A stretch of 39,783 nt of DNA. Source: Kordia aestuariivivens (GTDB lineage: Bacteria; Bacteroidota; Bacteroidia; Flavobacteriales; Flavobacteriaceae). The stretch spans positions 1 through 39,783 of the forward strand of contig NZ_JACGWS010000024.1 in NCBI RefSeq assembly GCF_014397005.1, given 5' to 3'. A model generated the notes under the pieces. That model ran no database searches. It was not told the origin of the DNA and saw nothing but the letters and a program-made list of their open reading frames with translations. Within the stretch, counting starts at the first letter, position 1. Every line of letters begins with the position of its first letter. Made by a program: the position numbers and the translations under genes. Shown one piece after another: positions 56 to 15,703 of the stretch.

Positions 56-430
56 AACTAAATCCTTTAAAAATTAGTCACAAATGTCTATATATGTACT
101 TAAAAAAACACTGATGTTGATCAGTTTAAAATAATTAGAACGAATATTTATAAGAAAGAATTTAATACCCTGAAAGCTCACAAATGCCATGCAAAATGAT
201 CATCCTGTGTTGTTTATATTTTATAAAATAGTACAAGGTTTAAATTGGATGAATCTATTGGTTGTGCTGTGGGAAATGTGCTAGAAGATGCTTATATTAC
301 AGTCATTGATATGGCTAACACGATTAGGTAAGAATGGTGTACAAATGATGACTGTATGAGTATTATATACAGCAGGGAAATTAGCAAAATCAGTATTCAT
401 ATTTTAATAAAATATAAAGACATAAATTTA
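56..430. other. Intergenic region between the MBL gene and pta
   Basis: This 375-nt stretch carries the minus-strand promoter at 81-123. An in-frame but startless open stretch at 227-331 encodes a protein-like sequence (including ESIGCAVGNVLEDAY) and may be a gene remnant. A small inverted repeat, CTGTAT at 352-357 and ATACAG at 367-372, has no clear role. I found no FNR-like site oriented toward pta. Confidence 0.5.
81..123 (-). promoter_or_regulatory. FNR-like site plus -7 box for the MBL gene
   Basis: Read on the minus strand, the site TGATCAACATCA (112-123) has perfect 5-bp arms, CTGAT/ATCAG. It is followed by exactly 23 nt and then GACATTTG (81-88), five of six matches to TAnnTTTG. The spacing is the same as at the other sites of the window. 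The start codon is at 55. Confidence 0.65.
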
Positions 431-2524
431 ATGAACAAAGCTATTTATATTGCTACAACCGAGTCCAATAGTGGTAAATCAATTGTATCTCTAGGACTTA
501 TGCAATCGCTATTGCGAAAGGTGGCTAAAGTAGGTTACTTTAGACCTATTATTGATGATTTTGAATCTGGAGAAACCGATAATCATATTCATACCATTAC
601 CTCTTATTTTAATTTAGACCTGAAATTTGAAGATGCGTATGCTTTCAAAAGAAGTGAAGTTATTCAAAAAATGAATGCGGATAAAGACGATGAAATTATT
701 AGTACGATTATCAAAAAATATAAAGCTATAGAAAAACGCTTTGATTTTGTGATTGTAGAAGGGACTAATTTTTCGGGTCAAGGATCTATAATAGAGTTTG
801 ATATTAATCTTTTAATCGCAAGAAATTTGGGGATTCCAGCCATTATTTTGACTAGCGGTACAGGAAAAACATTAGAAGAGCTTGTTGGCGATTTACAAAT
901 TGCTTACGATTCATTTAAGGATAAGGAAGTAGAAGTTGTATCTATTATCGCAAATAAAGTTGCACCTGAAAATCAGGAGATAGTTGTTGCTGAGTTGGAA
1001 AGAAAATTACCATCAAAAGTGATCGTAAATGCCATTCCACTCAATCCAGTCTTAGCCAATCCATCGATTAATGAAATTGTTGATGCACTAGATGCTAAGG
1101 TTCTTTTTGGAAAAGAGTTTTTAAACAATCAAGTTGGAGGTTTTAGTGTTGGAGCTATGCAATTGCGAAACTATTTAACGCACTTAAAAACGAATAGTTT
1201 GGTCATTACTCCAGGAGATCGTGCCGATATTATCTTAGGCGCACTACAGGCAAATGTATCAGCAAATTATCCGTCAATATCGGGAATAGTGCTTACTGGC
1301 GGTCTCATTCCTGAAGATTCAATTGGCAAATTGATAGAAGGTTTGTCAGACATTGTTCCTATTATTTCTGCGAAAGGCGGTACGTTTTCGGTAACGAATA
1401 ATATTGGCGCTATTAAGTCTCAGATCTATGCAAAAAACACTCAAAAAATAACGGCAGCCATTAACGATTTTGAAAAACATGTACAGGTAGAAACTTTGAT
1501 TGAAAGCTTAATTACTTTTAAATCAAATGGTATTACACCTAGAATGTTTCAGTATAACTTATTACAAAAAGCAAAATCTCATAAAAAACATATTGTATTA
1601 CCCGAAGGAACCGACGAACGTATCCTAAGAGCGACCAAACAATTGATTGATTTAGATATTGTCCGTATTACTTTACTAGGTGATAAAAAGCAAATAGAAG
1701 CTAAAATTGGAATGTTTGATATTGGATTAAATCTTGATAAGGTTACCATTATTAATCCTAATGAATCTGCTGATTTTGATGCTTTCGCGGAAGCATTGTA
1801 TGAACTACGAAAGCATAAGAATGTAAATTTAGCAATGGCGCGTGATCTTATGGAAGATGTTTCCTATTTTGGAACCATGATGGTGTATATGGGGAAAGCA
1901 GACGGAATGGTTTCTGGCGCAGTACATACCACACAACATACGATTCGTCCAGCACTTCAATTTGTGAAGACCAAGCCAGGAATAGCTTTAGTTTCCTCTA
2001 TATTTTTTATGTGCTTAGAAGATCGTGTGAGTATTTATGGAGATTGCGCAATTAACCCGAATCCTACGGCTGCACAATTGGCAGAGATTGCAATTTCTTC
2101 GGCTGCTACCAGTGTAGCTTTTGGTATTGAACCAAAAATAGCAATGTTATCCTATTCATCAGGGACTTCTGGAACAGGCGAAGATGTGGAACGCGTTCGA
2201 GAAGCAACTAAATTGGTAAAGCAAAAACGCCCTGATCTTAAAGTTGAAGGACCTATTCAATATGATGCCGCTGTAGATATGCAAGTTGGGAAAACTAAAA
2301 TGCCTAATTCTGAAGTTGCCGGACAAGCCAATGTATTTATCTTTCCCGATTTGAATACTGGAAATAATACGTATAAAGCAGTACAGAGAGAAACAAAAGC
2401 ACTCGCCATCGGTCCAATTATACAAGGACTTAACAAACCTGTGAATGACCTTAGTCGTGGTTGTACTGTAGATGATATTTTTAATACAGTTATTGTGACA
2501 GCAATTCAGGCACAAGAAATTTAA
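431..2524 (+). CDS. pta: Phosphate acetyltransferase (long, multidomain form)
   Basis: Converts acetyl-CoA and phosphate to acetyl phosphate and CoA in the cytoplasm, the first step of the acetate/ATP-yielding overflow pathway. I chose the ATG at 431 (697 residues, MNKAIYIATTESNSGKS). The frame is open from 356, but the extra 25 residues are not family-like. Order: N-terminal CobB/dethiobiotin-synthetase-like P-loop domain (about 1-215, motif TTESNSGKS), DRTGG domain (about 215-330), and catalytic PTA domain (from about 375, HIVLPEGTDERILRA, with GMVSGAVHTT and SYSSGTSGTGEDVERV further on). Length matches the long enterobacterial-type Pta. ackA begins 12 nt downstream, so the two are an operon. 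I found no FNR-like site in front of it, unlike the surrounding genes. Confidence 0.95.
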   Translation: MNKAIYIATTESNSGKSIVSLGLMQSLLRKVAKVGYFRPIIDDFESGETDNHIHTITSYFNLDLKFEDAYAFKRSEVIQKMNADKDDEIISTIIKKYKAIEKRFDFVIVEGTNFSGQGSIIEFDINLLIARNLGIPAIILTSGTGKTLEELVGDLQIAYDSFKDKEVEVVSIIANKVAPENQEIVVAELERKLPSKVIVNAIPLNPVLANPSINEIVDALDAKVLFGKEFLNNQVGGFSVGAMQLRNYLTHLKTNSLVITPGDRADIILGALQANVSANYPSISGIVLTGGLIPEDSIGKLIEGLSDIVPIISAKGGTFSVTNNIGAIKSQIYAKNTQKITAAINDFEKHVQVETLIESLITFKSNGITPRMFQYNLLQKAKSHKKHIVLPEGTDERILRATKQLIDLDIVRITLLGDKKQIEAKIGMFDIGLNLDKVTIINPNESADFDAFAEALYELRKHKNVNLAMARDLMEDVSYFGTMMVYMGKADGMVSGAVHTTQHTIRPALQFVKTKPGIALVSSIFFMCLEDRVSIYGDCAINPNPTAAQLAEIAISSAATSVAFGIEPKIAMLSYSSGTSGTGEDVERVREATKLVKQKRPDLKVEGPIQYDAAVDMQVGKTKMPNSEVAGQANVFIFPDLNTGNNTYKAVQRETKALAIGPIIQGLNKPVNDLSRGCTVDDIFNTVIVTAIQAQEI

Positions 2525-2536
2525 ACTCATAAAAGA

Positions 2537-3721: not shown

Positions 3722-3827
3722 GTTTTGATATTAAATTTCACCTAGTTTTAATCTCCATTTATATAATTTCTATCTCTTTAGATTTAATGATTGTCTATGT
3801 GTGTTTTTTATTTTTTAGGATTCTAAA

Positions 3828-4220
3828 TTAATTTCTTCTACTTCTTGTCGTTGAAGTTCTGCTCGATCTAGGACTGTTTGTATACGTTCTTCTGTGGTAT
3901 GTTCTAATATTAGTATCTCTATATCCTCTTACACGTACATATCTACTTCGATTAAGATTGATACTTCTATATCGTAACGGAAGTACATTTACACGAATCC
4001 AAACGTTATTTTCTAAGTATATATACTGTCGTAAAGAGAGGTCATAGTAGATAACATAATCTGGGAAATAGACATATCGTACAGATTCAATTCTATTTGG
4101 GTAAAACCATGCTGGTGGCGGATTATCAGGATATGGTGCTAGAATAATTGGTCCGCAGCTTTTCAAAAAAAACAGACTTAAAATTAGAATGACAAAAAAT
4201 GATAACTTATTGTTTTTCAT
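3828..4220 (-). CDS. Small lipoprotein, unknown function
   Basis: A 130-residue protein with a classic lipoprotein signal: MKNNK, a hydrophobic stretch, then FFLKSCG with the lipobox Cys at residue 22. The mature part is rich in Tyr, Pro and Arg. The segment YVYFPDYVIYYDLSLRQYIY followed by a tryptophan-containing strand looks like a short beta-rich repeat common in flavobacterial envelope proteins. The tail is low-complexity Arg/Ser/Thr (RRTYTNSPRSSRTSTTRSRRN is the extreme end minus one residue). It faces ackA convergently. Its promoter carries the best-extended inverted repeat of the window. The function is unknown; an envelope-stress role is a guess from the regulon context. Confidence 0.75.
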   Translation of the reverse strand: MKNNKLSFFVILILSLFFLKSCGPIILAPYPDNPPPAWFYPNRIESVRYVYFPDYVIYYDLSLRQYIYLENNVWIRVNVLPLRYRSINLNRSRYVRVRGYRDTNIRTYHRRTYTNSPRSSRTSTTRSRRN

Positions 4221-4239
4221 AAGGAGTTATTTTAGATTA

Positions 4240-4282
4240 CAAAGAAACTAAGTCTCAATAGTGCCTGAAATGACCCAAGTCA
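4240..4282 (-). promoter_or_regulatory. FNR-like site plus -7 box for the lipoprotein gene
   Basis: TGACTTGGGTCA on the minus strand (4271-4282) sits inside perfect 9-bp arms, TGAAATGAC (4266-4274) and GTCATTTCA (4279-4287). After exactly 23 nt comes TTTCTTTG (4240-4247), five of six matches to the Bacteroidetes -7 box. The start codon is at 4220. Confidence 0.75.
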
Positions 4283-4398
4283 TTTCAATGGTGTTGCGTT
4301 TAAAATAATTTTAGAATTCTAAGGTGTTGATAGTTCGTAGAAATAATATAAAAAAGGATAACAAGTAATACAATAGCTATAAATTCGATTATAGATAT

Positions 4399-4758
4399 TT
4401 AAAATTTATTTTGAAGAAACCTTTCTAACAATTCTACTTGGAAAGTTCCTACTATAGAAAGATTTGTGTCAGCATTTAGAAGCACTAATCCGTATCCTAA
4501 AAGCGAGAGTTTACAATCTTGAATGAGGTCTTGTTTGGTTCCACTAAACATAGGTCTAAAATGTTTTCGGATTTCTAGACCTGAAGAATTGGCTATTTTT
4601 ATAGCAGCAATAACTGCGGTATTAATTTGTTTAGGCGAAAGTCCTTTTTTTAATAAATCACTTGCCCAATACCTCATGCTTAAGGAATAATAAAGATCTA
4701 AAAAATCATCAATGCTAGACGTTAAGTCATACGTGTTTTTTTGTAATATGGTTTTCAT
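4399..4758 (-). CDS. Hypothetical protein (119 aa), last gene of a three-gene operon
   Basis: I do not recognise this family. The protein is predicted soluble, with no signal peptide or membrane segment. It looks mostly alpha-helical, with segments such as LDLYYSLSMRYWASDLL and INTAVIAAIKIANSSG. It lies 68 nt downstream of the DnaJ-like gene on the same strand, and no regulatory site precedes it, so it is probably the distal gene of the sigma-like/DnaJ/unknown operon read from the site at 6609-6620. A role in the chaperone or stress response is inference from position only. Confidence 0.7.
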   Translation of the reverse strand: MKTILQKNTYDLTSSIDDFLDLYYSLSMRYWASDLLKKGLSPKQINTAVIAAIKIANSSGLEIRKHFRPMFSGTKQDLIQDCKLSLLGYGLVLLNADTNLSIVGTFQVELLERFLQNKF

Positions 4759-4826
4759 AACTATGTCTTTTTCTAATGTTTACTACTATTGAAACATCAT
4801 TGTTTGCCATTGAATTAACTTTAATT

Positions 4827-5768
4827 TCATACGCCGTAGGTTGTGTTTTCTTTTTGCATTCTTAGTCTCTTCAATTCTTTAAACAAGGATTCTTCTTGTT
4901 TTGTTAGGTTTTTAGGTAATATGACATTCAATTTTACGAGCATGTCTCCATAAGAAGATTGTTTCCCGTATTTAGGCATTCCTTTGCCTTTGAGTCTTAA
5001 CCTTTTTCCAGTTTCACTTCCTTTTGGGATCGTAATTTTCAGGATTCCTGTAAGTGTCGAAATTTCTATTTTACCTCCCAAAATCGCAGTATATAAATCT
5101 ATTGAGGCGTTGTATAGCAGATCATCAGCTTTTCTTTCAAATCGAACGTCGGGTAGTACCTTCAAAATAATATACAAGTCACCTCTATTGCCACCACTGA
5201 CACTTGGCTGTCCCTTTCCTTTGATTTTTAATTGTTGGCCATCATAAGAACCAGGTTTTATAGTAATTCTTAAGTTTTCATTGTGAATTTCAAAAGTGCG
5301 TTTACTTCCTTGATAAGCTTCAAGTAATGTAATTGGCAATTCAGCTTGAATATCACCGCCAGAAAATGAGCTTCTCCTTTGTCTTTCTGATTGTCTACCG
5401 CCACCAAAAAATGTCTCAAAGAAACTTGAAAAATCTGTCCCATCGGTAGCATCATAAAACGCTGAAGAACCTTCTTGATGATACCGTTTTTGTTGATTCT
5501 GTTGATTTGCATAATCTCTCCAATCATCGCCTGTGTGTTGATATGCTTCCCAATTAGAACCTAATGCATCATATTTCTCACGCTTTTCCTTATCGCTCAA
5601 AACCTCATTTGCCTCATTAATTTCTTTAAACTTTTCTTCGGCAGCCTTATCATCAGGATTCTTATCAGGATGATACTTAGCCGCAAGTTTTCTGTACGCT
5701 TTTTTAATATCTTTAGCAGATGCGTTCTTTGCAACACCTAATATTTTGTAATAGTCCTTGTAATTCAT
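4827..5768 (-). CDS. cbpA: DnaJ-family co-chaperone, CbpA-like
   Basis: A 313-residue cytoplasmic J-domain protein that would stimulate DnaK ATPase and pass it client proteins. The N-terminal J domain (about 1-70) has the HPDKNPDD motif, with HPD as the DnaK-activating triad. A Gly/Phe-rich linker follows ([20 protein letters not shown]), and then two DnaJ C-terminal beta domains with [12 protein letters not shown] and [11 protein letters not shown]. There is no CxxCxGxG zinc-finger domain, so it is the CbpA type rather than true DnaJ. It begins 14 nt after the sigma-like gene ends and belongs to that operon. Confidence 0.92.
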
Positions 5769-5782
5769 TTATATAGTAACTG

Positions 5783-6547
5783 TTAGTCATACCTATTGAA
5801 AAAACTTATTTTCAACCCTTTTCTAGCATCATTGAGAAGTTGTTGTGCTTTTTCAATGGATATTTTCCTTACTTCTGCAATTTCTGCGAGCGTAAGATGT
5901 TGTTTCGTAAATAGTTCAAAAACTGTGCGCATAGCGTCTGGTAAGTTGTGTAAAACTACTTGTATGTGCCTGTCCACAGCCTCTTTATGTAAGATTTTAT
6001 CAATCTTTATTACAAGTTCCTTTTCAGTGTTTTCTATAAAAATATCATTCAAAGTATAAGGGTCTTTGTAATAAGAAATATCGTCAAGTTCTTCTTTCAT
6101 GATAAGATCGCCATCACTTTCTGCAGTAAATTTTTCATGCATTTGATCCCATTCTTTTTTAGAATATTCATCTATATTTTGAAAGAATAGATTATCGAAT
6201 TCTTCTTCAATTATAGTGTTTTCAAGGAGTTCATTGGTCTTTTTATATAACCAAACATAAAACTCATCTTCATTAGAAAAGTCTTGAATGTGATCGTAAA
6301 CCTCAATAAATAATTGGTCTATAAAATCATCAGCAGTGTATTTATTCTTTGGGAAATGCCCTTTCTGGATTGCATTACGCACTTTTTTAATAATATACCG
6401 TCTTATTTCTGGGATTATTTCTAAGAGCAATTGATTAAAGGCAATTCTATTTTCCGCTGCTTTAAGTCTAACAAGATTTGGTAGTGTCCGCTTTATAGAT
6501 ATTTGAAGCTCTTTGCGGCTCTTGTAAAAAGTAGTCTGATTTGCCAT
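5783..6547 (-). CDS. RNA polymerase sigma-70 family-like protein
   Basis: A 254-residue protein with the layout of an ECF-like sigma factor, but larger. The N-terminal part resembles region 2 (IRRYIIKKVRNAIQKGHF, then YTADDFIDQLFIEVYDHI). A long acidic middle follows. The C-terminus is a region 4-type helix-turn-helix: LHNLPDAMRTVFELF, then HLTLAEIAEVRKISIEKAQQ. The region 2 promoter-melting residues are not obvious, so it may be an active sigma factor or a DNA-binding relative. It is the first gene of an operon with a DnaJ-like chaperone and has its own FNR-like site, so it could relay the primary signal to a second tier of genes. Confidence 0.75.
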   Translation of the reverse strand: MANQTTFYKSRKELQISIKRTLPNLVRLKAAENRIAFNQLLLEIIPEIRRYIIKKVRNAIQKGHFPKNKYTADDFIDQLFIEVYDHIQDFSNEDEFYVWLYKKTNELLENTIIEEEFDNLFFQNIDEYSKKEWDQMHEKFTAESDGDLIMKEELDDISYYKDPYTLNDIFIENTEKELVIKIDKILHKEAVDRHIQVVLHNLPDAMRTVFELFTKQHLTLAEIAEVRKISIEKAQQLLNDARKGLKISFFNRYD

Positions 6548-6577
6548 AATTATAATTTTTGAGGTTTATACTAAGCG

Positions 6578-6620
6578 TAAAGATGCAAATAGTAGATTCC
6601 AAATAAAATGACAAGGGTCA
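6578..6620 (-). promoter_or_regulatory. FNR-like site plus weak -7 box for the sigma/DnaJ operon
   Basis: TGACCCTTGTCA on the minus strand (6609-6620), then 23 nt, then CATCTTTA (6578-6585), a poor match (four of six) to TAnnTTTG. Site position relative to the start codon (62 nt) is the same as at dodecin. Confidence 0.55.
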
Positions 6621-6731
6621 GTTGATAAACATTAGAACATTTAGAAGGTTTTTGAAACCAATACGAAAAGTATGAATAGTGCTAAATAAAAATTGAAAAA
6701 AGGAGATTGGCTAAGATTCATTAGTAGTATA

Positions 6732-6806: not shown

Positions 6807-7016
6807 TTATACTGTATCTATAATTCCAAAACAAACCTTTGTATTCACTCGGTATTCTACTATTTGGTTATTATTTACGGTTACTTGCATATCTTCCACA
6901 TAAACAGATTTAATATTTTTAACTGTTTTTGACACTTCATTAACGACGTTTTTCACAGCATCTTCGAAACTCTCGGTAGAGTTTCCTAATACCTCAATTA
7001 CTTTTAATACTGACAT
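6807..7016 (-). CDS. Dodecin family flavin-binding protein
   Basis: A 69-residue small protein. Dodecins form hollow dodecamers that store or buffer flavins. The fold signature is complete: MSVLKVIEVLGNSTESFEDA (strand, then helix), the central helix to about residue 34, then SVYVEDMQVTVNNN and IVEYRVNTKVCF strands. The aromatic that stacks on the isoalloxazine ring, Trp in many dodecins, is Tyr39 here, so flavin affinity or photochemistry may differ. It is monocistronic, with its own FNR-like promoter upstream and a strong terminator downstream, and is divergent from the hydrolase operon. Confidence 0.93.
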   Translation of the reverse strand: MSVLKVIEVLGNSTESFEDAVKNVVNEVSKTVKNIKSVYVEDMQVTVNNNQIVEYRVNTKVCFGIIDTV

Positions 7017-7046: not shown

Positions 7047-7089
7047 CAAATGTAGTATGGATAGATCGGTTTTAAAATGACCTGAGTCA
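7047..7089 (-). promoter_or_regulatory. FNR-like site plus consensus -7 box for dodecin
   Basis: TGACTCAGGTCA on the minus strand (7078-7089), exactly 23 nt, then TACATTTG (7047-7054), a full match to TAnnTTTG. Start codon at 7016. Confidence 0.8.
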
Positions 7090-7151: not shown

Positions 7152-7194
7152 TGATCTACATCATTGTTATACTTATGATATTGAAGTTTCTTTG
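7152..7194 (+). promoter_or_regulatory. FNR-like site plus -7 box for the hydrolase operon
   Basis: TGATCTACATCA (7152-7163), exactly 23 nt, then TTTCTTTG (7187-7194), the same box as at the lipoprotein promoter. Start codon at 7220. It is divergent from the dodecin promoter, 62 nt away. Confidence 0.75.
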
Positions 7195-7219: not shown

Positions 7220-7885
7220 ATGCTAAAAGAATGTACTAATAAATCGATTACCATTGGCTTAAAAGATGTTGCTTTACTTGGAGAACTATGTATTCCAAAA
7301 AATGCGTTGGGACTTATCATTTTTTCTCATGGAAGCGGCAGTAGTAGGTTAAGCCCCAGAAATAACTACGTTGCAAAAATACTTCAAAAGAAAGGGTTAG
7401 CCACATTGCTTTTTGATTTATTGACGGAAGAAGAAGACGCAATCTACGAGAACCGATTTAATATAGAACTTCTTACCAACAGACTTATAGAAGTCACTAA
7501 ATGGGTACAGGAGCAAAAAGAAACGGATACACTTCCCATTGGTTATTTTGGCGCAAGTACTGGTGCTGCATCTGCTCTAAGAGCTGCGGTCACTTTAAAA
7601 GGTGTTGTTGCAGTTGTAGTATCACGTGGAGGTAGACCAGATCTTGCAATGGAATTTTTGGAACAAGTAAGCACACCAACATTATTGATCGTAGGTGGAG
7701 ACGACACCATAGTCATTCAATTAAATAAACAAGCATACCAAAAGCTTCAATGTGAACGAAGTTTAGAGATTATACCAAACGCTACACATTTATTTGAAGA
7801 AAAAGGAAAATTAGAAACTGTGGCAATAAGTGCGGCCAAGTGGTTTGCAGAAAAGATAAACGCTAAACCCTTTGACTATGTTTAA
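7220..7885 (+). CDS. Alpha/beta hydrolase, dienelactone-hydrolase-like
   Basis: A 221-residue cytoplasmic hydrolase of unknown substrate. The oxyanion region is IIFSHGSGSSRLSPR. The nucleophile elbow is GYFGASTGAASAL (Ser), the acid is in LLIVGGDDTIV, and the catalytic His is in PNATHLFEE, so the triad is complete. The stop overlaps the next gene by 8 nt, implying translational coupling to the phosphoribosyltransferase. In the M. tuberculosis dormancy protein Rv0571c (from memory) the same two domains are fused. First gene of an operon under an FNR-like site. Confidence 0.88.
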   Translation: MLKECTNKSITIGLKDVALLGELCIPKNALGLIIFSHGSGSSRLSPRNNYVAKILQKKGLATLLFDLLTEEEDAIYENRFNIELLTNRLIEVTKWVQEQKETDTLPIGYFGASTGAASALRAAVTLKGVVAVVVSRGGRPDLAMEFLEQVSTPTLLIVGGDDTIVIQLNKQAYQKLQCERSLEIIPNATHLFEEKGKLETVAISAAKWFAEKINAKPFDYV

Positions 7886-8510
7886 AGATAGAATTGATGC
7901 TGGAAAACAGCTCGCCCAACGAATACTTAATTACAAGAATAAAGATGTTGTAGTGGTTGCTATTCCACGAGGAGGTCTTCCGCTAGGCGCTATTGTAGCC
8001 AAAGCACTCAATGCTCCTTTAGACGTAGTACTGACAAAAAAAATTGGACATCCAATCAACAAAGAATATGCTATTGGAGCCGTTAGTCTAGGAAACAAAT
8101 TTATTACAGATTCAGGCGAGGTTTCCATGAGTTATATTGAAGATGAAATCAGAAGTATTCGAGCACTATTACGTCAACGTCAAGATCAATACTATAAGAA
8201 TTCCAAACCTAAAGTTCTTAAAAACAAAATCGTCATTATTGTCGATGATGGTATAGCCACGGGAAATACAATGTTAGCTACTATACGACTTATAAAAGAT
8301 GAAGAGCCTTCAAGAATAATAGTTGCGGTTCCAGTAGCATCATTATCAGCACTCGAAAAATTGAACAATTCTCCCTTTGTAGATGAAACGGTTTGTTTGC
8401 TTATTCCAAGACATTTTAGAGCAGTGGGACAATTTTACACTACGTTTAATTCCGTAGACGATAAAATTGCAATACAAATTTTAGAAGAATCAAATAAACA
8501 ATTCAAGTAA
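7878..8510 (+). CDS. Phosphoribosyltransferase domain protein
   Basis: A 210-residue type I phosphoribosyltransferase-fold protein. The PRPP-binding loop is VIIVDDGIATGNTM. The N-terminal VVVVAIPRGGLPLGAIVA supplies the PPi-loop region, and TKKIGHPINKEYAIGAV is typical of this uncharacterised subgroup. The base substrate is unknown. I took the ATG at 7878; a TTG six bases earlier is in frame but less likely. It overlaps the hydrolase stop by 8 nt and lies 16 nt before the DUF2267 gene. It may equally be a regulator or a salvage enzyme. Confidence 0.88.
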   Translation: MFKDRIDAGKQLAQRILNYKNKDVVVVAIPRGGLPLGAIVAKALNAPLDVVLTKKIGHPINKEYAIGAVSLGNKFITDSGEVSMSYIEDEIRSIRALLRQRQDQYYKNSKPKVLKNKIVIIVDDGIATGNTMLATIRLIKDEEPSRIIVAVPVASLSALEKLNNSPFVDETVCLLIPRHFRAVGQFYTTFNSVDDKIAIQILEESNKQFK

Positions 8511-8526
8511 TAAAATACGATAAGTT

Positions 8527-8976
8527 ATGGCACTAAATTTTAATCAATACGCAGTAGAAGGGAATACATTCCTTAAAGAGTATGCAAAGGAAATTGGTCT
8601 CCCTGACAATCCAGAAAGTGCTGGACGCATACTTAGCGCTATTTTACACGGCTTACGTTCCATAATCTCCATAGAAGAATCATTACAGTTACTAGCGCAA
8701 CTTCCAATGTTTTTGAAAGCTGTTTATGTAAATGGATGGTCTATGAAAGCGAATAAGAATAAAGTAAAGGATGTAGAAGGGTTTATAGATCTCATTAGGT
8801 CGTTTGACGGTAAAACATCTTTGTACGATTTTGAATCTAATGAAATTGCTGAAGATTATATATACTCAACATTTAGAGCTTTAAGAAAATATGTGTCTAG
8901 CGGTGAAATGGAAGATATTAGAGGTGAACTTCCAAAACGATTAAAAGGGCTTATTTTTAATCACATGTTCGTTTAA
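8527..8976 (+). CDS. DUF2267 domain protein
   Basis: A 149-residue soluble protein matching the DUF2267 pattern: AGRILSAILHGLRSIISIEE, then LAQLPMFLKAVYVNGW, and a second half with FRALRKYVSSGEMEDIRGEL. The fold is two helical repeats. The function of the family is unknown; it recurs beside stress and low-oxygen genes in many bacteria (from memory). Third gene of the hydrolase/phosphoribosyltransferase operon. No terminator is visible before the next regulatory site, which begins 18 nt after the stop. Confidence 0.88.
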   Translation: MALNFNQYAVEGNTFLKEYAKEIGLPDNPESAGRILSAILHGLRSIISIEESLQLLAQLPMFLKAVYVNGWSMKANKNKVKDVEGFIDLIRSFDGKTSLYDFESNEIAEDYIYSTFRALRKYVSSGEMEDIRGELPKRLKGLIFNHMFV

Positions 8977-8993
8977 GAACAACTAAATAGTAC

Positions 8994-9035
8994 TGATTTA
9001 GGTCATTCATAACCTTAGTTTTGTCTGTTTCTTTG
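8994..9035 (+). promoter_or_regulatory. FNR-like site plus -7 box before a 15-codon ORF
   Basis: TGATTTAGGTCA (8994-9005), 22 nt, then TTTCTTTG (9028-9035). This is the only site in the window with a spacer of 22 rather than 23. It points toward the tiny reading frame at 9070. Confidence 0.6.
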
Positions 9036-9117: not shown

Positions 9118-9131
9118 AAATATACTCTAAC

Positions 9132-9174
9132 TGACCTAGGTCAGTTTGTATCTAAAAAAACCGCCTTAAATTAG
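9132..9174 (+). promoter_or_regulatory. Perfect 18-bp palindrome plus -7 box, no gene behind it
   Basis: TGACCTAGGTCA (9132-9143) lies at the centre of the fully self-complementary AACTGACCTAGGTCAGTT (9129-9146), the most symmetric site of the set. Exactly 23 nt later is TAAATTAG (9167-9174), a four-of-six match to the -7 box. No protein-coding frame follows for almost 500 nt. Confidence 0.75.
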
Positions 9175-9347
9175 CAGTATAATTACAACAGCAAGTTCTT
9201 TGAAAAGATAAAAATATAGATTCTTGGATAGCAATACCCTTGAATCTTGGAGGTATCCAAAAGTATATTAAGTTTTGCCTTTTCTGTATTTCTAGCAATA
9301 GCGATACACTAAATTGCAAATAGTCTTAAACTACATTTGATATCTTC

Positions 9348-9383
9348 AAGGAAACCGGACTATTTCGGTATTTCGGTTTCCTT
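9348..9383 (+). other. Internal hairpin in the candidate small RNA
   Basis: AAGGAAACCG (9348-9357) pairs perfectly with CGGTTTCCTT (9374-9383) around a 16-nt loop containing TTTCGG twice. It is followed by seven A residues rather than U, so it is more likely an RNA structural element than a + strand terminator. Confidence 0.6.
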
Positions 9384-9530
9384 AAAAAAATAGCCTCTAG
9401 CTACTGCAAAGTGCTAAAGGCCATTGTGAAGTGACAAATGTTTTTTCCTAAAATCCATTGGTAATAACTTTCTAAAAGTAAGTTGTTTTGATCGATTGGC
9501 ATTGATGAAAGAATAATAGGATCTTCATAG

Positions 9531-9564
9531 GAAACGGGAAGTCTAGGCTTCCCGTTTCTGTTTT
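9531..9564 (+). terminator. Rho-independent terminator of the candidate small RNA
   Basis: A perfect 11-bp GC-containing stem, GAAACGGGAAG (9531-9541) and CTTCCCGTTTC (9548-9558), with loop TCTAGG, followed by TGTTTT. The U-tract is on the + strand side only. Confidence 0.8.
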
Positions 9565-9642
9565 AAAAAAGATTTGTTTTATCCACTAACTGAACATCTT
9601 TTGGCACGTTAAAATCTTCGAAATACTGATTATTAGTATGTT

Positions 9643-10128
9643 TTACATTAAATTTTCTATTGCTATTAAAGATTCTTTTTCACCTCTTATGATCAACAAG
9701 AGGTTTGCGTTTTGTAATTCTTTTATGTAACGATTAATATCACCTAATTTGATTCCAATACCTCTAAATATACCAAACAGTCCAATGGGCAATGAGCCTA
9801 GTTCTTTACCATCTATCTTGCATAAAAATGTTTCTGTTAAATGACCAACTATAAAGAGAATTCCAATTTCTGAATTATTGAAATAACCAAATTGAATATG
9901 TTTGCCTAGAAAGCCTGCTAGTTCCCATCTTATTTTCTTTATTTTTTCATCTAATGCATTTTCTTTATCTGAATAATTAGAAGCAAGTTTACCTAAGATG
10001 GATACTTGTAGCTGTAAACCATTTTTATGTTGAACAATATTTCTTATAACTTTTTCTATTTGCAATAAGTTAGGATATATTTTTATAAGAAATTGTTTGC
10101 TTTTTATTTTATCTTCTTGAGGAATCAT
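9643..10128 (-). CDS. Hypothetical protein (161 aa), regulon member
   Basis: I do not recognise this protein. It is soluble and helix-rich with many Ile and Leu. A middle part reads IRWELAGFLGKHIQFGYF, and a glycine-rich hydrophobic segment follows (GSLPIGLFGIFRGIGIKLGD). The closing part, INRYIKELQNANLLLIIRGE, resembles the recognition/wing end of a winged helix, but that is a weak impression. It lies downstream of the response regulator gene on the same strand. It has its own FNR-like promoter in the 85-nt gap, so it is probably transcribed separately. Confidence 0.7.
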   Translation of the reverse strand: MIPQEDKIKSKQFLIKIYPNLLQIEKVIRNIVQHKNGLQLQVSILGKLASNYSDKENALDEKIKKIRWELAGFLGKHIQFGYFNNSEIGILFIVGHLTETFLCKIDGKELGSLPIGLFGIFRGIGIKLGDINRYIKELQNANLLLIIRGEKESLIAIENLM

Positions 10129-10160
10129 TGTAATTATATTAATATGGAATCATTGTCCTA

Positions 10161-10203
10161 CTAAATTAGTTTTAGCATTCTTTTTTTCCAATGACGTGGG
10201 TCA
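10161..10203 (-). promoter_or_regulatory. FNR-like site plus -7 box for the 161-aa protein gene
   Basis: TGACCCACGTCA on the minus strand (10192-10203), exactly 23 nt, then TAATTTAG (10161-10168), five of six matches. It lies just past the stop of the response regulator gene. Start codon at 10128. Confidence 0.75.
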
Positions 10204-10213
10204 ATGTTTACTA

Positions 10214-11284
10214 CTATCCAAAAAGTACAATGTCCTCTAACTGCTTTTTATTTTGAATGATAATTCTTCTGCGTTCAACAATAGTGACGAGTCCTTCATC
10301 TTTAAAATCAGTGAGCATTCTAATGGCTGTCTCGGTAGCTGTACCAATAAGACCTGCTAAATCTTCTCTTGAAATATCAATTCCTTCAGACGTTGAATTA
10401 TGAAGTTTTTTGTTATCATATAGATAGAGTAGTGCTTTTGCCAATCGCTGTCTAACCGTCGCAAATGCCATACTGACTAATTGTTTTTGAACATCAATCA
10501 AATCATTGGAGATCATCGTAATGAATTTGTTAGAAATTAGTTTATTACCATAAATCAATGTTTTAAAATCTTTTTTTGGGATCTCAAATACTTCTGCTTG
10601 TTCTAAAACTGTTGCAGTGTCTGTATAGGTTCCTATATTCGAAAGTAAAGAGAGTTGCCCAATAAACTGACCTGGACCATATATACCAGTAACTAAACAC
10701 TTTCCCGATTCTGTGGTTTTATAGGTTTTTATGGAACCACTTTGAATAAAATATAGCGTATGAGCAGCGTCGCCCTCCATAAATAACGTTTCTCTTTTTT
10801 TATATGTTTTGCTATTGCGATCTTTAGATAGATGCTCCATGCCTTCGTGAGAGGACGCTTCGTCTAAGAATTGATTCACGCCTTTAATGTCTTTCGAGAA
10901 TTCTTTTTTCAAGAAAGTATGTTTATTCAGTCTGGTTGCGACAGCTTCCAAAAGTTCGTTTTCTTCAAAAGGTTTTGTCAGATAATCATCTGCTCCAAGA
11001 TTCATTCCTTTTCTAACATCTGTTCTTTCTGTTCTTGAAGTAAGGAAAATAAAAGGCGTACTCGCTGTTTTTTTATCTTCACTAAGGTTTTGTAGCACTT
11101 CATATCCATTAAGTCCGGGCATCATAATATCGCATATAATGATATCTGGTCTCGCATTTTTTGCAAGTTCTACGCCTTTTTTTCCGTTGTCCGCAGTGCA
11201 AACCTCATAATTGGCTAGTTCTAAAATGTCGGCTGTATTCTCGCGTACATCTTGGTTGTCTTCGATGATTAATATTTTTTTCAT
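10214..11284 (-). CDS. Response regulator: receiver domain fused to a CRP/FNR-type activator
   Basis: A 356-residue hybrid. The receiver domain (about 1-120) has the acidic pair E8/D9, phosphoacceptor D52 in IIICDIMMPG, T82 and K104. A cyclic-nucleotide-binding-fold domain (about 150-270, with FMEGDAAHTLYFIQSGSIK) and a Crp-type winged helix (about 280-350) follow. The recognition helix GTATETAIRML keeps the Glu and Arg that contact TGA half-sites in CRP and FNR (E318, R322), which suits the TGA-N6-TCA sites across the island. No FNR-like cysteine cluster is present, so the signal should come through phosphorylation by the adjacent kinase rather than by direct oxygen sensing. It starts 10 nt after the kinase gene. 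Confidence 0.93.
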   Translation of the reverse strand: MKKILIIEDNQDVRENTADILELANYEVCTADNGKKGVELAKNARPDIIICDIMMPGLNGYEVLQNLSEDKKTASTPFIFLTSRTERTDVRKGMNLGADDYLTKPFEENELLEAVATRLNKHTFLKKEFSKDIKGVNQFLDEASSHEGMEHLSKDRNSKTYKKRETLFMEGDAAHTLYFIQSGSIKTYKTTESGKCLVTGIYGPGQFIGQLSLLSNIGTYTDTATVLEQAEVFEIPKKDFKTLIYGNKLISNKFITMISNDLIDVQKQLVSMAFATVRQRLAKALLYLYDNKKLHNSTSEGIDISREDLAGLIGTATETAIRMLTDFKDEGLVTIVERRRIIIQNKKQLEDIVLFG

Positions 11285-11294
11285 GGGTTTATAT

Positions 11295-14132
11295 TTAGGT
11301 AGGTTTTGGTAGTTTTATTTGAAAAGTAGTTCCATTATTTTCTTCACTAGTAAAATCAATACTACCGTCCATAAGTTCTACATACTGCTTTACGATATTG
11401 AGTCCGAGACCAGTACCTTCGATATTGTACGCATTCTTTGCTCTGAAAAAACGTTCAAATAGGTTTTTTTGTTCTTCTTTAGGAATACCAATACCTTCAT
11501 CACTAATTTTTATGACAACAAACAAATCTTCTTCTTCAATATTAAAATGAATCGTTGAATTTTCTGGAGAATACTTGATTGCATTGGACAGCAAATTCAT
11601 TAATATGTGACGGATTAGTTTTGGATCAAGATTGAATGAAAGTGTATCTTCTGAAGATGAAAATATGATGCTTTGATTTGTCTTGGTTGTAGTCGATATC
11701 TCTTCCACGACGGTTTTTGCTAAACTCACAAGATCAAAATTTTCTCTATGAGCAGTAATTTTACCTTCTTCAAGCTTACTAAGCGATAAAAAGTCGTTTA
11801 AAATCACGACTAGATGTTTTACATTATTCTTTATCTGACGTACATATTTCGTTCTTTTTTCTTCTTTGCCAGGTTCATTTTGCTTGCCGATAAGGATGGC
11901 TGAGGTTTGTATAGCACTCAAAGGAGTTCTAAACTCATGCGATGCCATAGAAATAAATCGTGATTTCAATTCGTTGAGTTCTTGTTCTTTTTTTAAAGCG
12001 TTTTGTGCATCGCGTTCAATTGTTTTTTGTTGGGAAATATCATTATATACAAACAATGCGCTAGCTACGTTATTGTTTTTATCGACTAAGGGTGTCGTAT
12101 TCACAGAAAAGTATTTTTTCCTGTATTGCATCTCCAAACTAAGATGATCACCTTGCATCGTTTTTACGATATCTTCTTTTAATTTGGTCTTTTGCTTTTC
12201 AGAAAAGATTGATAAATCATCAATAGACATCCCCTCAAAAATCACTTTGTGTAACCCTAATACATAAATTGCTTGACCTTCTCCGAGAAGAATTTCAAAA
12301 TTAGCATTGAAAACAATAATAAATCCATTCGGGAAATTTTTAGCAATGGTTGACAATAATGATTTACTTGCCAAGGCAATTTTTTCGGCAGCTTCAGTCT
12401 CTAGTTTTTGATCTTCTAAGCTCAAATTTGTTGCCACTAATTGTTCAACAGTCGCAGCTACTTCTTCTGTTCGTTTTTCTACTTTTGCTTCTAGCTTTTG
12501 AGCGTAGGCTTTGAGTAGTTCTTCTTTTTCTTTTAACTTGGTTTTCGTATGATTTTTCTCAATTGCAACTTTTAGTAACTTAACAACATCAGTAATTATT
12601 TCTTTATCCTTTTTAGATATTTGTTTCTCATCTGTATAGTATATAGAAAGGAATCCTAAGTGATTTTTTTTCAAGGAGAGAATAGGGAATGACCAACACG
12701 ATTTTAAACCAGATGCTACAATTTGATCTCTTTGGTTTATCCAGTTCTTGTGATTCAAAATATTTGTAATGAGTATTGCCTTGCTGGAATTAAAAGCGGG
12801 ATGCAATAATTTTAGGTCAGGATGTTTAGTTTCATCTATAGATGTTGAGAAAGTTTCTATTGCATTAGATTCTGAAAGTCTTTCAAACTTATTTGTTGTA
12901 AGGTTTTTTATGGATATAATGGCTGCACACTCAGGAATTTGAGATTCAATAGTTTTAATGATTTTATTTCCAATGAGGGATAGTGTTGTATCTTCTGTAA
13001 TAAACTCAAGAATATCTTGCATATTCTTTTGTTGCGTTATGTCTGTAATAAAGCCTTCTAGCGTATATTGACCATTATGAACACCACAGCCTATCTCTCT
13101 AACATATTTGATAGTTCCTTTTTTGCACACTATTCTATACTGTATATCATAATGCTTTTTCTGAGACAATGCTTCCTGTATTTGATTCCATACATACACA
13201 CGATCTTCATTTAGAATAATAGTGCCAAAATGTACTGAACCATTCAAGAATTCATCACTAGTATACCCAGTAATTGCATAACAACCGTCGTTTATATAAT
13301 CCATTGTATATTCCTGATTATTTTGGCAAGAATATACGATGCCGTTCAAGTTATCAATAAGTGTTTGATGTTTTCTATTACTATCTAGAAGCTCTTTTTG
13401 TTTATTCTTCAATGCAGTGATATCTCTCATGGTACCACTCATACCAATAGGAGCACCTGTTGAATCATAATCGACATTTCCACGGGCAATTACATTTCTA
13501 ATTATACCATTAGGATGTACAATTCTTTTTTCAAAATGATAAGGTCTATTATTTTCAATAGCTTGATTCACTACCTCAATAGCCATTTTTCGATCATCAG
13601 GATGTATAAATGAAATTGCTGTTTCAGCATTTAAGCGATCATCGTCAGGTGACAATCCGCAAATTCTATAAAACTCATCGGACCAATAACGTTCGTTGGT
13701 TTTAAAAATCCAATACCAATTCCCTAGATTTCCTTCACTCTCAATATTGGATAGGCTCTTTTGACTTCCTTTTAGCGCCCATTTATAAATTAAATTATCG
13801 GTAACATCTTCAATAAATAGTACCGTGTCAAAACCTTCATTATTCGCAATAGTATTTAACTGTATGTTTATCAACGATTGAGAACCATCTTTCTTTTTAA
13901 GCCACAATTCAGATAAATGTTCATTGGAATCAGTCTCAATTTTCTTCGATAATTCAGGAATTACGGTATCTATAAATTTGTTCGCTAATTCCTTTTCGGT
14001 ATAACCAGATGCTATTTGCGCAGCTAGATTGGCTTTAAGAATAATCTTTTCTTCAGTTATAACAAATATAGCTTGAGAAGAAGCTTCAAAAATATGTTGA
14101 AATAGTTGGGTATGTTTCTGGTAGTTAGTCAT
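11295..14132 (-). CDS. Multi-PAS/GAF sensor histidine kinase (soluble)
   Basis: A 945-residue kinase with no transmembrane segment, so the signal is cytoplasmic. Order: PAS (about 10-115), PAS of the PAS_3 type (about 120-245, NWYWIFKTNERYWSDEFYRI), a second PAS_3 (about 250-370), GAF (about 375-525), coiled coil (about 530-590), a fourth PAS (about 595-700), HisKA with FISMASHEFRTPLS (H732), and HATPase with NLLSNAIKYSP, DEGIGIP and GTGLGLNIV. No heme- or flavin-specific residue set can be assigned by eye, so the ligand (redox, oxygen or other) is unknown. It forms an operon with the receiver-CRP regulator and may be autoregulated by the degenerate site just upstream. Confidence 0.94.
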   Translation of the reverse strand: MTNYQKHTQLFQHIFEASSQAIFVITEEKIILKANLAAQIASGYTEKELANKFIDTVIPELSKKIETDSNEHLSELWLKKKDGSQSLINIQLNTIANNEGFDTVLFIEDVTDNLIYKWALKGSQKSLSNIESEGNLGNWYWIFKTNERYWSDEFYRICGLSPDDDRLNAETAISFIHPDDRKMAIEVVNQAIENNRPYHFEKRIVHPNGIIRNVIARGNVDYDSTGAPIGMSGTMRDITALKNKQKELLDSNRKHQTLIDNLNGIVYSCQNNQEYTMDYINDGCYAITGYTSDEFLNGSVHFGTIILNEDRVYVWNQIQEALSQKKHYDIQYRIVCKKGTIKYVREIGCGVHNGQYTLEGFITDITQQKNMQDILEFITEDTTLSLIGNKIIKTIESQIPECAAIISIKNLTTNKFERLSESNAIETFSTSIDETKHPDLKLLHPAFNSSKAILITNILNHKNWINQRDQIVASGLKSCWSFPILSLKKNHLGFLSIYYTDEKQISKKDKEIITDVVKLLKVAIEKNHTKTKLKEKEELLKAYAQKLEAKVEKRTEEVAATVEQLVATNLSLEDQKLETEAAEKIALASKSLLSTIAKNFPNGFIIVFNANFEILLGEGQAIYVLGLHKVIFEGMSIDDLSIFSEKQKTKLKEDIVKTMQGDHLSLEMQYRKKYFSVNTTPLVDKNNNVASALFVYNDISQQKTIERDAQNALKKEQELNELKSRFISMASHEFRTPLSAIQTSAILIGKQNEPGKEEKRTKYVRQIKNNVKHLVVILNDFLSLSKLEEGKITAHRENFDLVSLAKTVVEEISTTTKTNQSIIFSSSEDTLSFNLDPKLIRHILMNLLSNAIKYSPENSTIHFNIEEEDLFVVIKISDEGIGIPKEEQKNLFERFFRAKNAYNIEGTGLGLNIVKQYVELMDGSIDFTSEENNGTTFQIKLPKPT

Positions 14133-14137
14133 ATATG

Positions 14138-14180
14138 TAAAGGTACATATAGGAAGTAGTTTTTAAAATGATATTTCTCA
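14138..14180 (-). promoter_or_regulatory. Degenerate FNR-like site plus -7 box for the two-component operon
   Basis: TGAGAAATATCA on the minus strand (14169-14180) keeps both outer triplets TGA and TCA but has G at position 4. Exactly 23 nt on is TACCTTTA (14138-14145), five of six matches. The start codon is at 14132, so the predicted transcript would be leaderless or nearly so. Confidence 0.45.
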
Positions 14181-14356
14181 TATCAGTTGCTAACATAAAA
14201 AATGATGAGTATTAACATTCAAATAATACGATTCTTTCTAAAAGCTTACTAAAGAATAATGTAAGTCATTTTCAATGAGGTAGGTGTGTAATAAATGTGA
14301 CTAATACCTATGTAACCTCAAAATGTCACATATAAGTAAGTTTGAAATACCTCTAA

Positions 14357-14399
14357 TGACCTAGATCATTTTACATGGATGAACTACTCGCTAACTTTG
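14357..14399 (+). promoter_or_regulatory. FNR-like site plus consensus -7 box for the PepSY-like gene
   Basis: TGACCTAGATCA (14357-14368), exactly 23 nt, then TAACTTTG (14392-14399), a full match to TAnnTTTG. Start codon at 14429. Confidence 0.8.
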
Positions 14400-14428
14400 A
14401 GTATTAAAAAATTTAAAACTTTAATATT

Positions 14429-14929
14429 ATGAAAAATCTAATTCTTTTTTTATTAGTTTGCGGTCTAACCACACCTGCATTTGCTCAAATAATTGAACTC
14501 GACGAAGTTGTAATCTTTCCTGTTAAATACAAATATCTTTTTGAAGTGGTGGATGGAGATATCGATGAAAACGTGAAAAAATTGCAGATGAAACTTGCTA
14601 ACTTCGATGTTACAAAAGAAGAGTATTACAATGATGAATATAATGAATATCATGTATCTTTTTATATACCAAAAGGGTATGCTTTGGCTTCCTATGATAG
14701 AAATGGTAAGTTAATCAAAACCATTGAACGCTATAAAAATGTAAAACTGCCTTCAGCAGTGAGTGAAGCACTCACTAAAAGATTTCCCAATTGGAGCGTA
14801 GATAAAGACATCTATAAAGTGGTATATTCTGAGGAAAAATGGGACTCTAAAAAAATCTATAAATTAAAATTGACCAATGGTAAGGAAACCATTAGAGTTA
14901 AAACCGATGAAAATGGTACTTTTTTATAA
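14429..14929 (+). CDS. Secreted PepSY-like protein
   Basis: A 166-residue protein with a cleavable signal peptide (MKNLILFLLVCGLTTPAFAQ, probably cut after AFA). The mature part resembles the Bacteroidetes PepSY-like/BLIP-like domain. A first strand set ends in YHVSFYIPKGYALASYDRNG, then LPSAVSEALTKRFPNWSVDK (the typical helix plus FP.W), then KIYKLKLTNGKETIRVKTDE. Such domains are thought to bind or inhibit proteins in the envelope; the partner is unknown. It is monocistronic, with a consensus FNR-like promoter in front and a strong terminator behind. Confidence 0.8.
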   Translation: MKNLILFLLVCGLTTPAFAQIIELDEVVIFPVKYKYLFEVVDGDIDENVKKLQMKLANFDVTKEEYYNDEYNEYHVSFYIPKGYALASYDRNGKLIKTIERYKNVKLPSAVSEALTKRFPNWSVDKDIYKVVYSEEKWDSKKIYKLKLTNGKETIRVKTDENGTFL

Positions 14930-15000
14930 GCTGTAATACCAACTTTACCAACGAAAAACGATTAAATAGCATACCAATTACAACGTATCTATTCCATACA

Positions 15001-15041
15001 AAAGAACATTGAATTTGTTGAAGTTCAATGTTCTTTTTTTT
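15001..15041 (+). terminator. Rho-independent terminator after the PepSY-like gene
   Basis: A perfect 13-bp stem, AAAGAACATTGAA (15001-15013) with TTCAATGTTCTTT (15024-15036), ten-base loop, then an uninterrupted T run to 15041. Confidence 0.85.
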
Positions 15042-15072
15042 ATGGAATTTCAGGAGTTCTAAACTCTATAAT

Positions 15073-15123
15073 TTAAAAACCCTTTTACCAAATATTTTGT
15101 ACGTATAGTTTTGGTAAAAGGGT
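15073..15123 (-). terminator. Rho-independent terminator after hsp20
   Basis: A perfect 14-bp stem, ACCCTTTTACCAAA (15079-15092) with TTTGGTAAAAGGGT (15110-15123). On the minus strand the stem runs into TTTTTA. It lies 34 nt past the Hsp20 stop. Confidence 0.75.
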
Positions 15124-15156
15124 CATTGTTGAAGATAATTTCCTGAAAACAATGCA

Positions 15157-15624
15157 TTAGGAAATTTCAATTCTTTTTGGATTTTTTGCTTTAGCTTCTT
15201 CTTTTTTGATAAGATCAAAACTAAGGATGCCGTCTTTATATGTTGCTTTGACATCTTCATCTTTTACTGAATCGGGAAGCTGTAAACGTTTTTCAAAAGA
15301 ATTATAACTAAACTCTTTTCTTGTGTAATTATCCTCTTTTTCCTCCTTTGATTCTGATTTTTCTGCTGAAATATTAAGGCAGCCATCATCTATGGTTACT
15401 TCAAAATCCTTTTTCGAAAACCCAGGAGCAGCCAATTCTACTTCATAAGCTTCATCTGTTTCTTTAACGTTTAAAGCAGGTTCTTGCGATTTTCCATTCC
15501 AGAAATCTTTATTGATAATGTCTGAATTCCATAAGCGATTACTAAATATGGGATCGGAATCAAAAAAATCTGAGGCAATGAGGTTTCCGAAGGGTCTTCT
15601 TTTTCCAAATTTTACTAGTGACAT
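15157..15624 (-). CDS. Small heat-shock protein, Hsp20/alpha-crystallin family
   Basis: A 155-residue ATP-independent holdase. The alpha-crystallin domain runs from about residue 48 to 145. It opens with PALNVKETDEAYEVELAAPG and contains FEVTIDDGCLNISAEK and RKEFSYNSFEKRLQLP. It ends with the conserved ATYKDGILSFDL motif, and a short PKRIEIS tail supplies the dimer/oligomer contact. Full length. It has a consensus FNR-like promoter and its own terminator, and is therefore monocistronic. Hsp20 under a low-oxygen-type activator recalls the HspX/Acr protein of the mycobacterial DosR regulon. Confidence 0.95.
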   Translation of the reverse strand: MSLVKFGKRRPFGNLIASDFFDSDPIFSNRLWNSDIINKDFWNGKSQEPALNVKETDEAYEVELAAPGFSKKDFEVTIDDGCLNISAEKSESKEEKEDNYTRKEFSYNSFEKRLQLPDSVKDEDVKATYKDGILSFDLIKKEEAKAKNPKRIEIS

Positions 15625-15660
15625 AATTTTATAATTTTAGTTTAACAATATTTTATAAAG

Positions 15661-15703
15661 CAAAATTAAGACAGTCTTTGGTCGTATAAAATGACCTGTG
15701 TCA
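15661..15703 (-). promoter_or_regulatory. FNR-like site plus consensus -7 box for hsp20
   Basis: TGACACAGGTCA on the minus strand (15692-15703), exactly 23 nt, then TAATTTTG (15661-15668), a full match to TAnnTTTG. Start codon at 15624. Confidence 0.8.

Follow-up and report, generated by a model that had tools for sequence, protein, structure and literature searches.

In Escherichia coli, FNR and CRP activate class II promoters from an operator centred at −41.5. Oxygen sensing in rhizobia runs through the FixL–FixJ–FixK cascade, and DosR/DevR is a LuxR-type regulator acting with a DosR box. In Flavobacterium psychrophilum, start-site mapping places the box TAnnTTTG at −12 to −5, as given in the accessible portion of PMC9723704. 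The 39,783-nt contig NZ_JACGWS010000024.1 of Kordia aestuariivivens (hereafter the window; C17 among the 46 contigs of a 5.46 Mb genome) repeatedly combines this box with a CRP/FNR-like dyad, TGAY-N4-RTCA (TGAYNNNNRTCA), separated from it by a spacer of 23 nucleotides (N23; N denotes spacer nucleotides throughout, and boxes are scored over six bases). With a probability of roughly 0.8, we read the window sites as class II operators of the regulator encoded at 10214–11284, a fusion of a receiver to a CRP module that would be one of three parallel branches.

Ten exact dyads occur in the window (Table 1), against a chance expectation of 3.58 (standard deviation 2.11), and that number was reached in one of 100 shuffles. 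All ten are intergenic and lie within the first 15.7 kb, where the intergenic share is 2606 of 15735 bp. In the direction faced, eight carry a box of at least five of six bases at exactly N23, three of them perfect; the probability of eight such boxes in 20 directions by chance is 3e-11 to 3e-10. The composite motif noticed in a sequence-only reading of the window is thus real, with some trimming of its description. Of the eleven sites listed there, ten are exact, but the one at 14169 (TGATATTTCTCA, or TGAG-N4-ATCA on the other strand) breaks the stated pattern; it is weak or leaderless, because only 5 nt separate the end of its box from the kinase ATG. The spacing, given as a fixed 22–23 nt, is N23 in eight and N22 at site 8994, but the box at 6609 reaches only 4/6. 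Most sites face genes, as had been claimed of all of them or of an RNA, yet site 8994 faces nothing beyond a 15-codon open reading frame (ORF). Site 4271 has a second 5/6 box at N23 on its opposite side, with no gene start there, and the metallo-beta-lactamase gene left of site 112 is represented by its first 18 residues only, followed by the contig end.

The notion of a local regulon proved too narrow, and a purely local one is rejected, since composites occur genome-wide and the architecture is family-wide. A whole-genome scan with spacers of 20–26 returned 35 composites, 25 at exactly N23 and 10 over the other six spacings; a search fixed at N23 likewise gave 25, and the reversed-pattern control a single one. 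Among 20 of these N23 sites that were examined, 19 lie outside ORFs of more than 100 codons and 16 have an ATG 14–55 nt past the box, the four exceptions being L009, L011, L038 (ATG at 136 nt) and the site of L016. Judged by their first residues, the genes that follow own-genome N23 sites encode what we take to be HemN, universal stress protein, FtsH and BON proteins. Another 13 sites whose boxes score at least 5/6 are located at the end of contig C45, nine of them GC-rich at the centre; a search for an overlap joining contig C45 or C20 to the window found none.

Across the family Flavobacteriaceae, sampled with one genome per genus, composites are present in 134 of 149 genera. The strength of the spacing preference is best seen in regions defined by the regulators they hold, namely the receiver–CRP regulator of the window and its close relatives (type A), a second receiver–CRP type (type B), and FNR. 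The type A regions span about 39 kb each and come from 11 genomes (the window and ten relatives); their 157 dyads have 126 boxes of at least 5/6 at N23, against a mean of 3.6 and a largest value of 13 at the 59 other spacings between 0 and 59. Ten genomes each with B-only and FNR-only regions gave 63 and 30 N23 boxes against means of 2.5 and 1.8. A second set of 29 named-record loci (Formosa, Winogradskyella, Polaribacter, Maribacter, Arenibacter, Flavobacterium and others; L203, L215, L231 and L233 belong to no group, and L169 was left out as the same contig as G037) yielded 161 N23 boxes against a mean of 5.1 and a largest value of 17. Reversed-pattern controls were flat in the own genome and in the family sets alike. 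Since the spacer is N23 and the box lies at −12 to −5, the dyad centre falls at −41.5 if the F. psychrophilum placement holds here; the dyad is thereby fixed at the position proposed earlier from class II promoters, on a start map that belongs to that relative rather than to Kordia. Together these comparisons support a refined interpretation, in which the regulon would be genome-wide, the architecture family-wide, and the geometry shared by three regulators with similar recognition helices.

The own genome encodes one type A protein, one type B protein and one FNR with N-terminal cysteines, along with two further HTH_Crp_2 proteins whose recognition helices are unlike these. Type A relatives share 56 to 65% identity and occur in 11 of the 149 genomes, including the window's own; type B relatives are about 40% identical, and A or B is found in 66 of 149. 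In a tree of 33 proteins, type B forms one clade (99/100). Both types retain the residues of a response regulator, namely the aspartate pocket, phospho-Asp, Thr/Ser and Lys, with D9, D52, T/S82 and K104 conserved in 31 of 31 aligned receiver–CRP proteins (11 type A, 20 type B). The N-terminal cluster cysteines are missing from types A and B, while the FNR proteins at C10 and of G107 have C4, C7, C29 and C106, some or all of which are presumably the cluster ligands. CRP binds cAMP through an arginine of its phosphate-binding cassette; by eye, this arginine is not at the aligned position in any of the 31 receiver–CRP proteins. No full-length receiver–CRP structure appears among the best 60 of 256 sequence matches in the PDB.

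Composite counts track FNR or receiver–CRP regulators. The median is 8 in the 123 genomes with a match to the FNR query, a query whose matches include receiver–CRP proteins, and none of these genomes has zero; the median is 0 in the 26 genomes without a match (Mann–Whitney 5e-13). With small comparators removed via a hand-made list, leaving nine no-match genomes of at least 2.6 Mb, p is 1.5e-6. Type B genomes without a close FNR match keep their composites, with nine each in G101, G027 and G143.

Which of the three regulators probably reads the window sites is suggested chiefly by the four bases at the centre of the dyad. The FNR-only logo is about AAACATGAYAAATRTCATRTTTTA and B-only sites are similar, to which the type A regions add a CTAG-like centre; the subset with GC-rich centres, picked for that property, reads CTGACCTAGGTCATTTT (133 of 283 distinct sites). 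At least two G or C among the four central bases are found at 57 of 126 sites in type A regions, 2 of 63 in B-only regions and 0 of 30 in FNR-only regions. In the window itself the figure is 9 of 9 counted, one dyad being counted in both directions. Within type A genomes, such centres mark 38 of 68 sites near A as opposed to 1 of 74 near B or FNR (Fisher 1e-14), a count that omits the A regions of four genomes, G037 and G011 because B is present there too, and G056 and G119 because the comparison covered no B or FNR region of theirs, together with contigs C45 and C20. The seven genomes represented on both sides give 38 of 68 near A versus 0 of 63. Among exact sites, the own genome has 10 of 25 with GC-rich centres, compared with 7 of 133 sites listed for 15 genomes without type A.

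These counts bear directly on the strongest competing explanation, that the window sites are mainly FNR or type B operators, with the neighbouring regulator playing a minor part and the CTAG-like centre a tolerated variation. Such an explanation draws on a dyad and spacing that are the same and a recognition helix that is near-identical, and on 57 genomes with an FNR-query match and no receiver–CRP match, each of which has at least one composite. The distribution of GC-rich centres, absent from FNR-only sites, all but absent from B-only sites and universal among the counted window sites, is hard to reconcile with it; on these counts FNR was rejected as the main reader of the window sites, and the explanation as a whole is unlikely. 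Congruent with this, the earlier proposal that the protein at 10214–11284 is the reader gains indirect support from the clustering of the CTAG-like variant around its orthologs and not its paralogs, and the type A protein itself would probably be what binds there.

Several observations nonetheless weigh against assigning the sites to type A. Type A is not resolved as a single clade in the 33-protein tree. In A, B and FNR the recognition helix is almost the same (GTATESAIR versus GTATETAIR), with E and R at what we take to be the CRP/FNR contact positions, and cross-binding is therefore likely. Between 5 and 9 composites occur in each of three genomes that lack a regulator match (G048, G147 and G138). 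At 69 of the 126 sites in type A regions, at most one of the four central bases is G or C, so that the regulons there are mixed, and the surroundings of a type B subclade have GC-rich centres at 5 of 27 sites. The window kinase lacks a recognisable ligand-binding sensor. Lastly, the centres of Hsp20 operators on the whole favour the type A link: in genomes without type A (30 of 91 matching loci), an N23 site stands at 24 of 30 loci, 20 of the 24 with fewer than two central G or C, and in genomes with type A (all 27 loci) at 15 of 27, 10 of the 15 with at least two. Yet four genomes without type A (G032, G103, G126 and G025; L234-L236, L261; L291-L301) have GC-rich Hsp20 operators. G032, G103 and G126 belong to one type B subclade (100/100).

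On the reading that type A governs the window sites, the kinase at 11295–14132 would phosphorylate the adjacent receiver–CRP regulator, and the phosphorylated dimer would bind TGAC-CTAG-GTCA-like DNA centred at −41.5. The bound dimer would replace the −33 contact and recruit sigma-A polymerase to the TAnnTTTG box, in the manner of CRP and FNR at class II promoters. Branch A might thus control Hsp20, dodecin, lipoprotein, DnaJ/sigma-like and hydrolase–phosphoribosyltransferase (PRT) genes and more stress genes genome-wide, notably at the end of contig C45. Fe–S FNR and type B would act from the same position through mostly AT-centred operators, on cbb3 and heme genes and on universal stress proteins.

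Comparison beyond Flavobacteriaceae speaks to whether the dyads activate or repress. In a phylum set of 198 genomes, N23 composites occur in 84, the family having the highest counts; other members of the class have 0 to 11, and genomes outside it mostly zero and at most 6. Near distant relatives of the regulator (33 loci, including L184-L218 and L230, with titles naming other families or only Bacteroidetes), boxes of at least 5/6 number 40 at N45, 20 of them perfect, compared with 23 at N23, six of these in the single locus L230. A smaller excess in the same set is seen at N27 (10 boxes of at least 5/6). The N45 signal is not an artefact but reflects tandem dyads: 22 bp downstream of the N45 dyads (39 distinct, in 23 loci), at the −41.5 position, lies a second, often degraded dyad, matching on average 4.46 of 6 bases against 0.6 to 2.2 at other offsets and perfect in 13 of 39. 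Class-level genomes behave similarly (47 listed hits, mean 4.28, perfect in 19). In Flavobacteriaceae, the upstream partner is on average at background (1.65 to 1.73 of 6), and 8 of 379 sites reach 5/6. The tandem dyads imply that the −41.5 position is shared and that the upstream partner is the variable part. Polymerase could also be blocked from −41.5, and the dyads might conceivably be repressor sites overlapping the promoter. Repressor sites, however, are usually scattered in position; a single helically fixed position in hundreds of promoters, and the in-phase partner dyad that other Bacteroidota have 22 bp upstream, suggest activation instead, and repression is distinctly improbable. That the dyads arose by chance, or as a repeat element or terminator hairpin before genes, has next to nothing in its favour beyond AT-rich intergenic DNA and a palindromic dyad, and repeats and terminators were rejected on the spacing peaks and flat reversed controls given above.

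The genes behind the operators are largely those of a stress response, as anticipated earlier and as upheld by the whole-genome scan and both comparative sets. Of the 126 dyads in the type A regions, 122 fall between genes, and for 114 an ATG comes within 200 nt downstream, at a median of 31 nt. A Pfam scan of one representative of each target family matched 18 of 20: universal stress protein, patatin, YtxH, carboxymuconolactone decarboxylase, WG-repeat, PPDK/PEP synthase, outer-membrane efflux protein, BON, peroxiredoxin, PfkB, M50-CBS protease, pyridoxamine-oxidase-like, lysine-decarboxylase-like, baeRF, CheB/CheR, erythromycin esterase, ribosome hibernation factor and radical SAM. Targets elsewhere were named from first residues. 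The ten FNR-only genomes have a site before CcoS-like genes in nine, CcoI-like ATPases in seven and HemN-like genes in four. Of the 63 sites in B-only regions, 20 stand before genes for universal-stress-type proteins and four before those for hibernation-factor-like ones; two Hsp20-like and a few cbb3/hemN-like genes also follow sites. Oxygen limitation raises cbb3 oxidase and heme-synthesis genes in F. psychrophilum, according to the accessible part of PMC9723704, which fits the FNR branch.

The kinase gene adjoins the type A regulator gene in all 11 type A genomes, on the same strand, and in 6 of them its ATG is preceded at 19 to 164 nt by an N23 site, which suggests autoregulation. Its sensor, by contrast with its position, is variable. 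A LOV domain with the photoactive cysteine (GxNC..LQ) is present by alignment in 9 of 11 type A genomes (L074-L092), of which the strict motif GxNCR[FM]L detects 6 of 11, and in 12 of 30 named loci (L159, L163-L166, L169, L172, L173, L177, L178, L180, L182), two further ones having LOV-like domains with the cysteine lost. LOV was found in none of the ten B-only and none of the ten FNR-only neighbourhoods. The G063 kinase has a FixL-like PAS. These LOV kinases beside type A point to possible light control of the stress regulon in many flavobacteria. Type B kinases, in turn, are likely oxygen sensors with a putative heme PAS: that of the own genome (L043:3769-5070) has DosP and FixL heme sensors as its best PAS matches, and among the ten B-only loci (L094-L113) all keep the axial His and eight the Arg. 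Neither a LOV signature nor a FixL-like PAS was found in the window kinase by alignment or PDB search; its sensor half gave six PAS matches in the PDB, none a heme sensor and four of them weak matches to blue-light receptors. Oxygen is a good candidate signal for the FNR and type B branches; for the window kinase, most relatives of which have a LOV domain for sensing light, it is only one candidate among others.

From these strands a wider picture can be drawn, tentatively and at somewhat less than even odds: Flavobacteriaceae may run three parallel class II regulons, one of oxygen through FNR, one of oxygen through a heme-PAS kinase and type B, and one of blue light through a LOV kinase and type A, with a PAS/GAF signal taking the place of light in cases such as the window. 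All would share one promoter position, with A set apart mainly by its four central bases (CTAG versus AT), and in sister orders these same regulators would work from tandem operators at −63.5 and −41.5.

Table 1. Putative operators of the window with their boxes, and associated genes.
Feature	Position (strand)	Sequence	Box	Target or remark
Dyad	112..123 (-)	TGATCAACATCA	GACATTTG, 81-88, 5/6, N23	metallo-beta-lactamase start, ATG ~55, cut by contig end
Dyad	4271..4282 (-)	TGACTTGGGTCA	TTTCTTTG, 4240-4247, 5/6, N23	lipoprotein-like gene 3828-4220
Dyad	6609..6620 (-)	TGACCCTTGTCA	CATCTTTA, 6578-6585, 4/6, N23	sigma-region-4 protein and DnaJ genes 4827-6547
Dyad	7078..7089 (-)	TGACTCAGGTCA	TACATTTG, 7047-7054, 6/6, N23	dodecin 6807-7016
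Dyad	7152..7163 (+)	TGATCTACATCA	TTTCTTTG, 7187-7194, 5/6, N23	hydrolase / phosphoribosyltransferase / DUF2267 genes 7220-8976
Dyad	8994..9005 (+)	TGATTTAGGTCA	TTTCTTTG, 9028-9035, 5/6, N22	downstream only 15-codon ORF (by eye)
Dyad	9132..9143 (+)	TGACCTAGGTCA	TAAATTAG, 9167-9174, 5/6, N23	no + strand ORF >30 codons downstream
Dyad	10192..10203 (-)	TGACCCACGTCA	TAATTTAG, 10161-10168, 5/6, N23	conserved gene 9643-10128
Imperfect dyad	14169..14180 (-)	TGAGAAATATCA	TACCTTTA, 14138-14145, 5/6, N23	weak candidate autoregulatory site of kinase gene
Dyad	14357..14368 (+)	TGACCTAGATCA	TAACTTTG, 14392-14399, 6/6, N23	gene 14429-14929, no Pfam match
Dyad	15692..15703 (-)	TGACACAGGTCA	TAATTTTG, 15661-15668, 6/6, N23	Hsp20 gene 15157-15624
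Type A receiver-CRP regulator	10214..11284 (-)			Response_reg + cNMP_binding + HTH_Crp_2, 356 aa; proposed site reader
PAS/GAF sensor histidine kinase	11295..14132 (-)			945 aa, 10 nt upstream of regulator gene
Hsp20	15157..15624 (-)			family has N23 operator in 10/10 type A regions holding it
Conserved 161-aa protein	9643..10128 (-)			no Pfam match; N23 site in 7/8 family members

Some neighbouring features deserve mention in their own right. The family of the 161-aa protein lies near the regulator in eight genomes. The 254-aa protein at 5783–6547, upstream of the DnaJ gene, matches sigma-70 region 4 solely at its C terminus, and six other genomes have homologs of it in their type A regions. 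At 9132–9640, an operator and box are followed by about 460 nt without an ORF of more than 30 codons and with a terminator-like hairpin at 9354–9369, a stretch that could possibly specify a regulated small RNA; an Rfam search gave no credible match there, its sole hit being a microRNA family far below its gathering score and taken as chance. The + strand gene run at 17613–37289 (acyl-CoA dehydrogenase, DUF6734, a LanC-like protein and a 2164-aa ORF) contains zero dyads and is perhaps a biosynthetic cluster.

With the fixed −41.5 rule, flavobacterial genomes can be scanned for candidate promoters of the oxygen and stress responses, in a phylum whose sigma-A box is unusual; the rule also indicates that TAnnTTTG is compatible with class II geometry. 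The two operator classes would be a case of paralog insulation via central bases, and the kinases one of sensor swapping (heme-PAS, LOV, other PAS/GAF) on a single output module. A full-text literature search, covering titles and the beginnings of abstracts and mostly outside subscription journals, found no description of a receiver–CRP regulon or of this geometry in Bacteroidota, and neither is described in the accessible parts of PMC4844311 and PMC8199190. A MalR matrix has been applied to a Flavobacteriales metagenome-assembled genome (accessible part of PMC8510549).

Among known systems, NmpRSTU of Myxococcus is likewise a two-component system tied to oxygen limitation with hemN among its targets, but its regulator is NtrC-type and acts at enhancers of the form GCGCA-N5-TGCGC (PMC11841059, in its accessible part). 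DevR/DosR of Mycobacterium and OsdR of Streptomyces are also two-component, and their regulator gene is surrounded by a cluster for universal stress proteins, heat shock proteins and PPDK (PMC5069765, in its accessible part). The likeness to DevR/DosR is in gene content only, as the output here is a CRP-type HTH_Crp_2 domain and the TGA-N6-TCA motif is unrelated. FixL–FixJ–FixK comes closer on the input side, where the type B kinase has a FixL/DosP-like PAS with axial His and FNR-type operators precede cbb3 and hemN-like genes; unlike in that cascade, receiver and CRP module form one protein, so that the FixJ and FixK steps would be merged. On the output side, class II activation by CRP and FNR offers the same TGA-N6-TCA dyad, the same centre at −41.5 and an HTH_Crp recognition helix, from which the flavobacterial architecture differs in three respects: TAnnTTTG stands in for the −10 box, a receiver domain for Fe–S or cAMP control, and a CTAG-centred operator variant is added.

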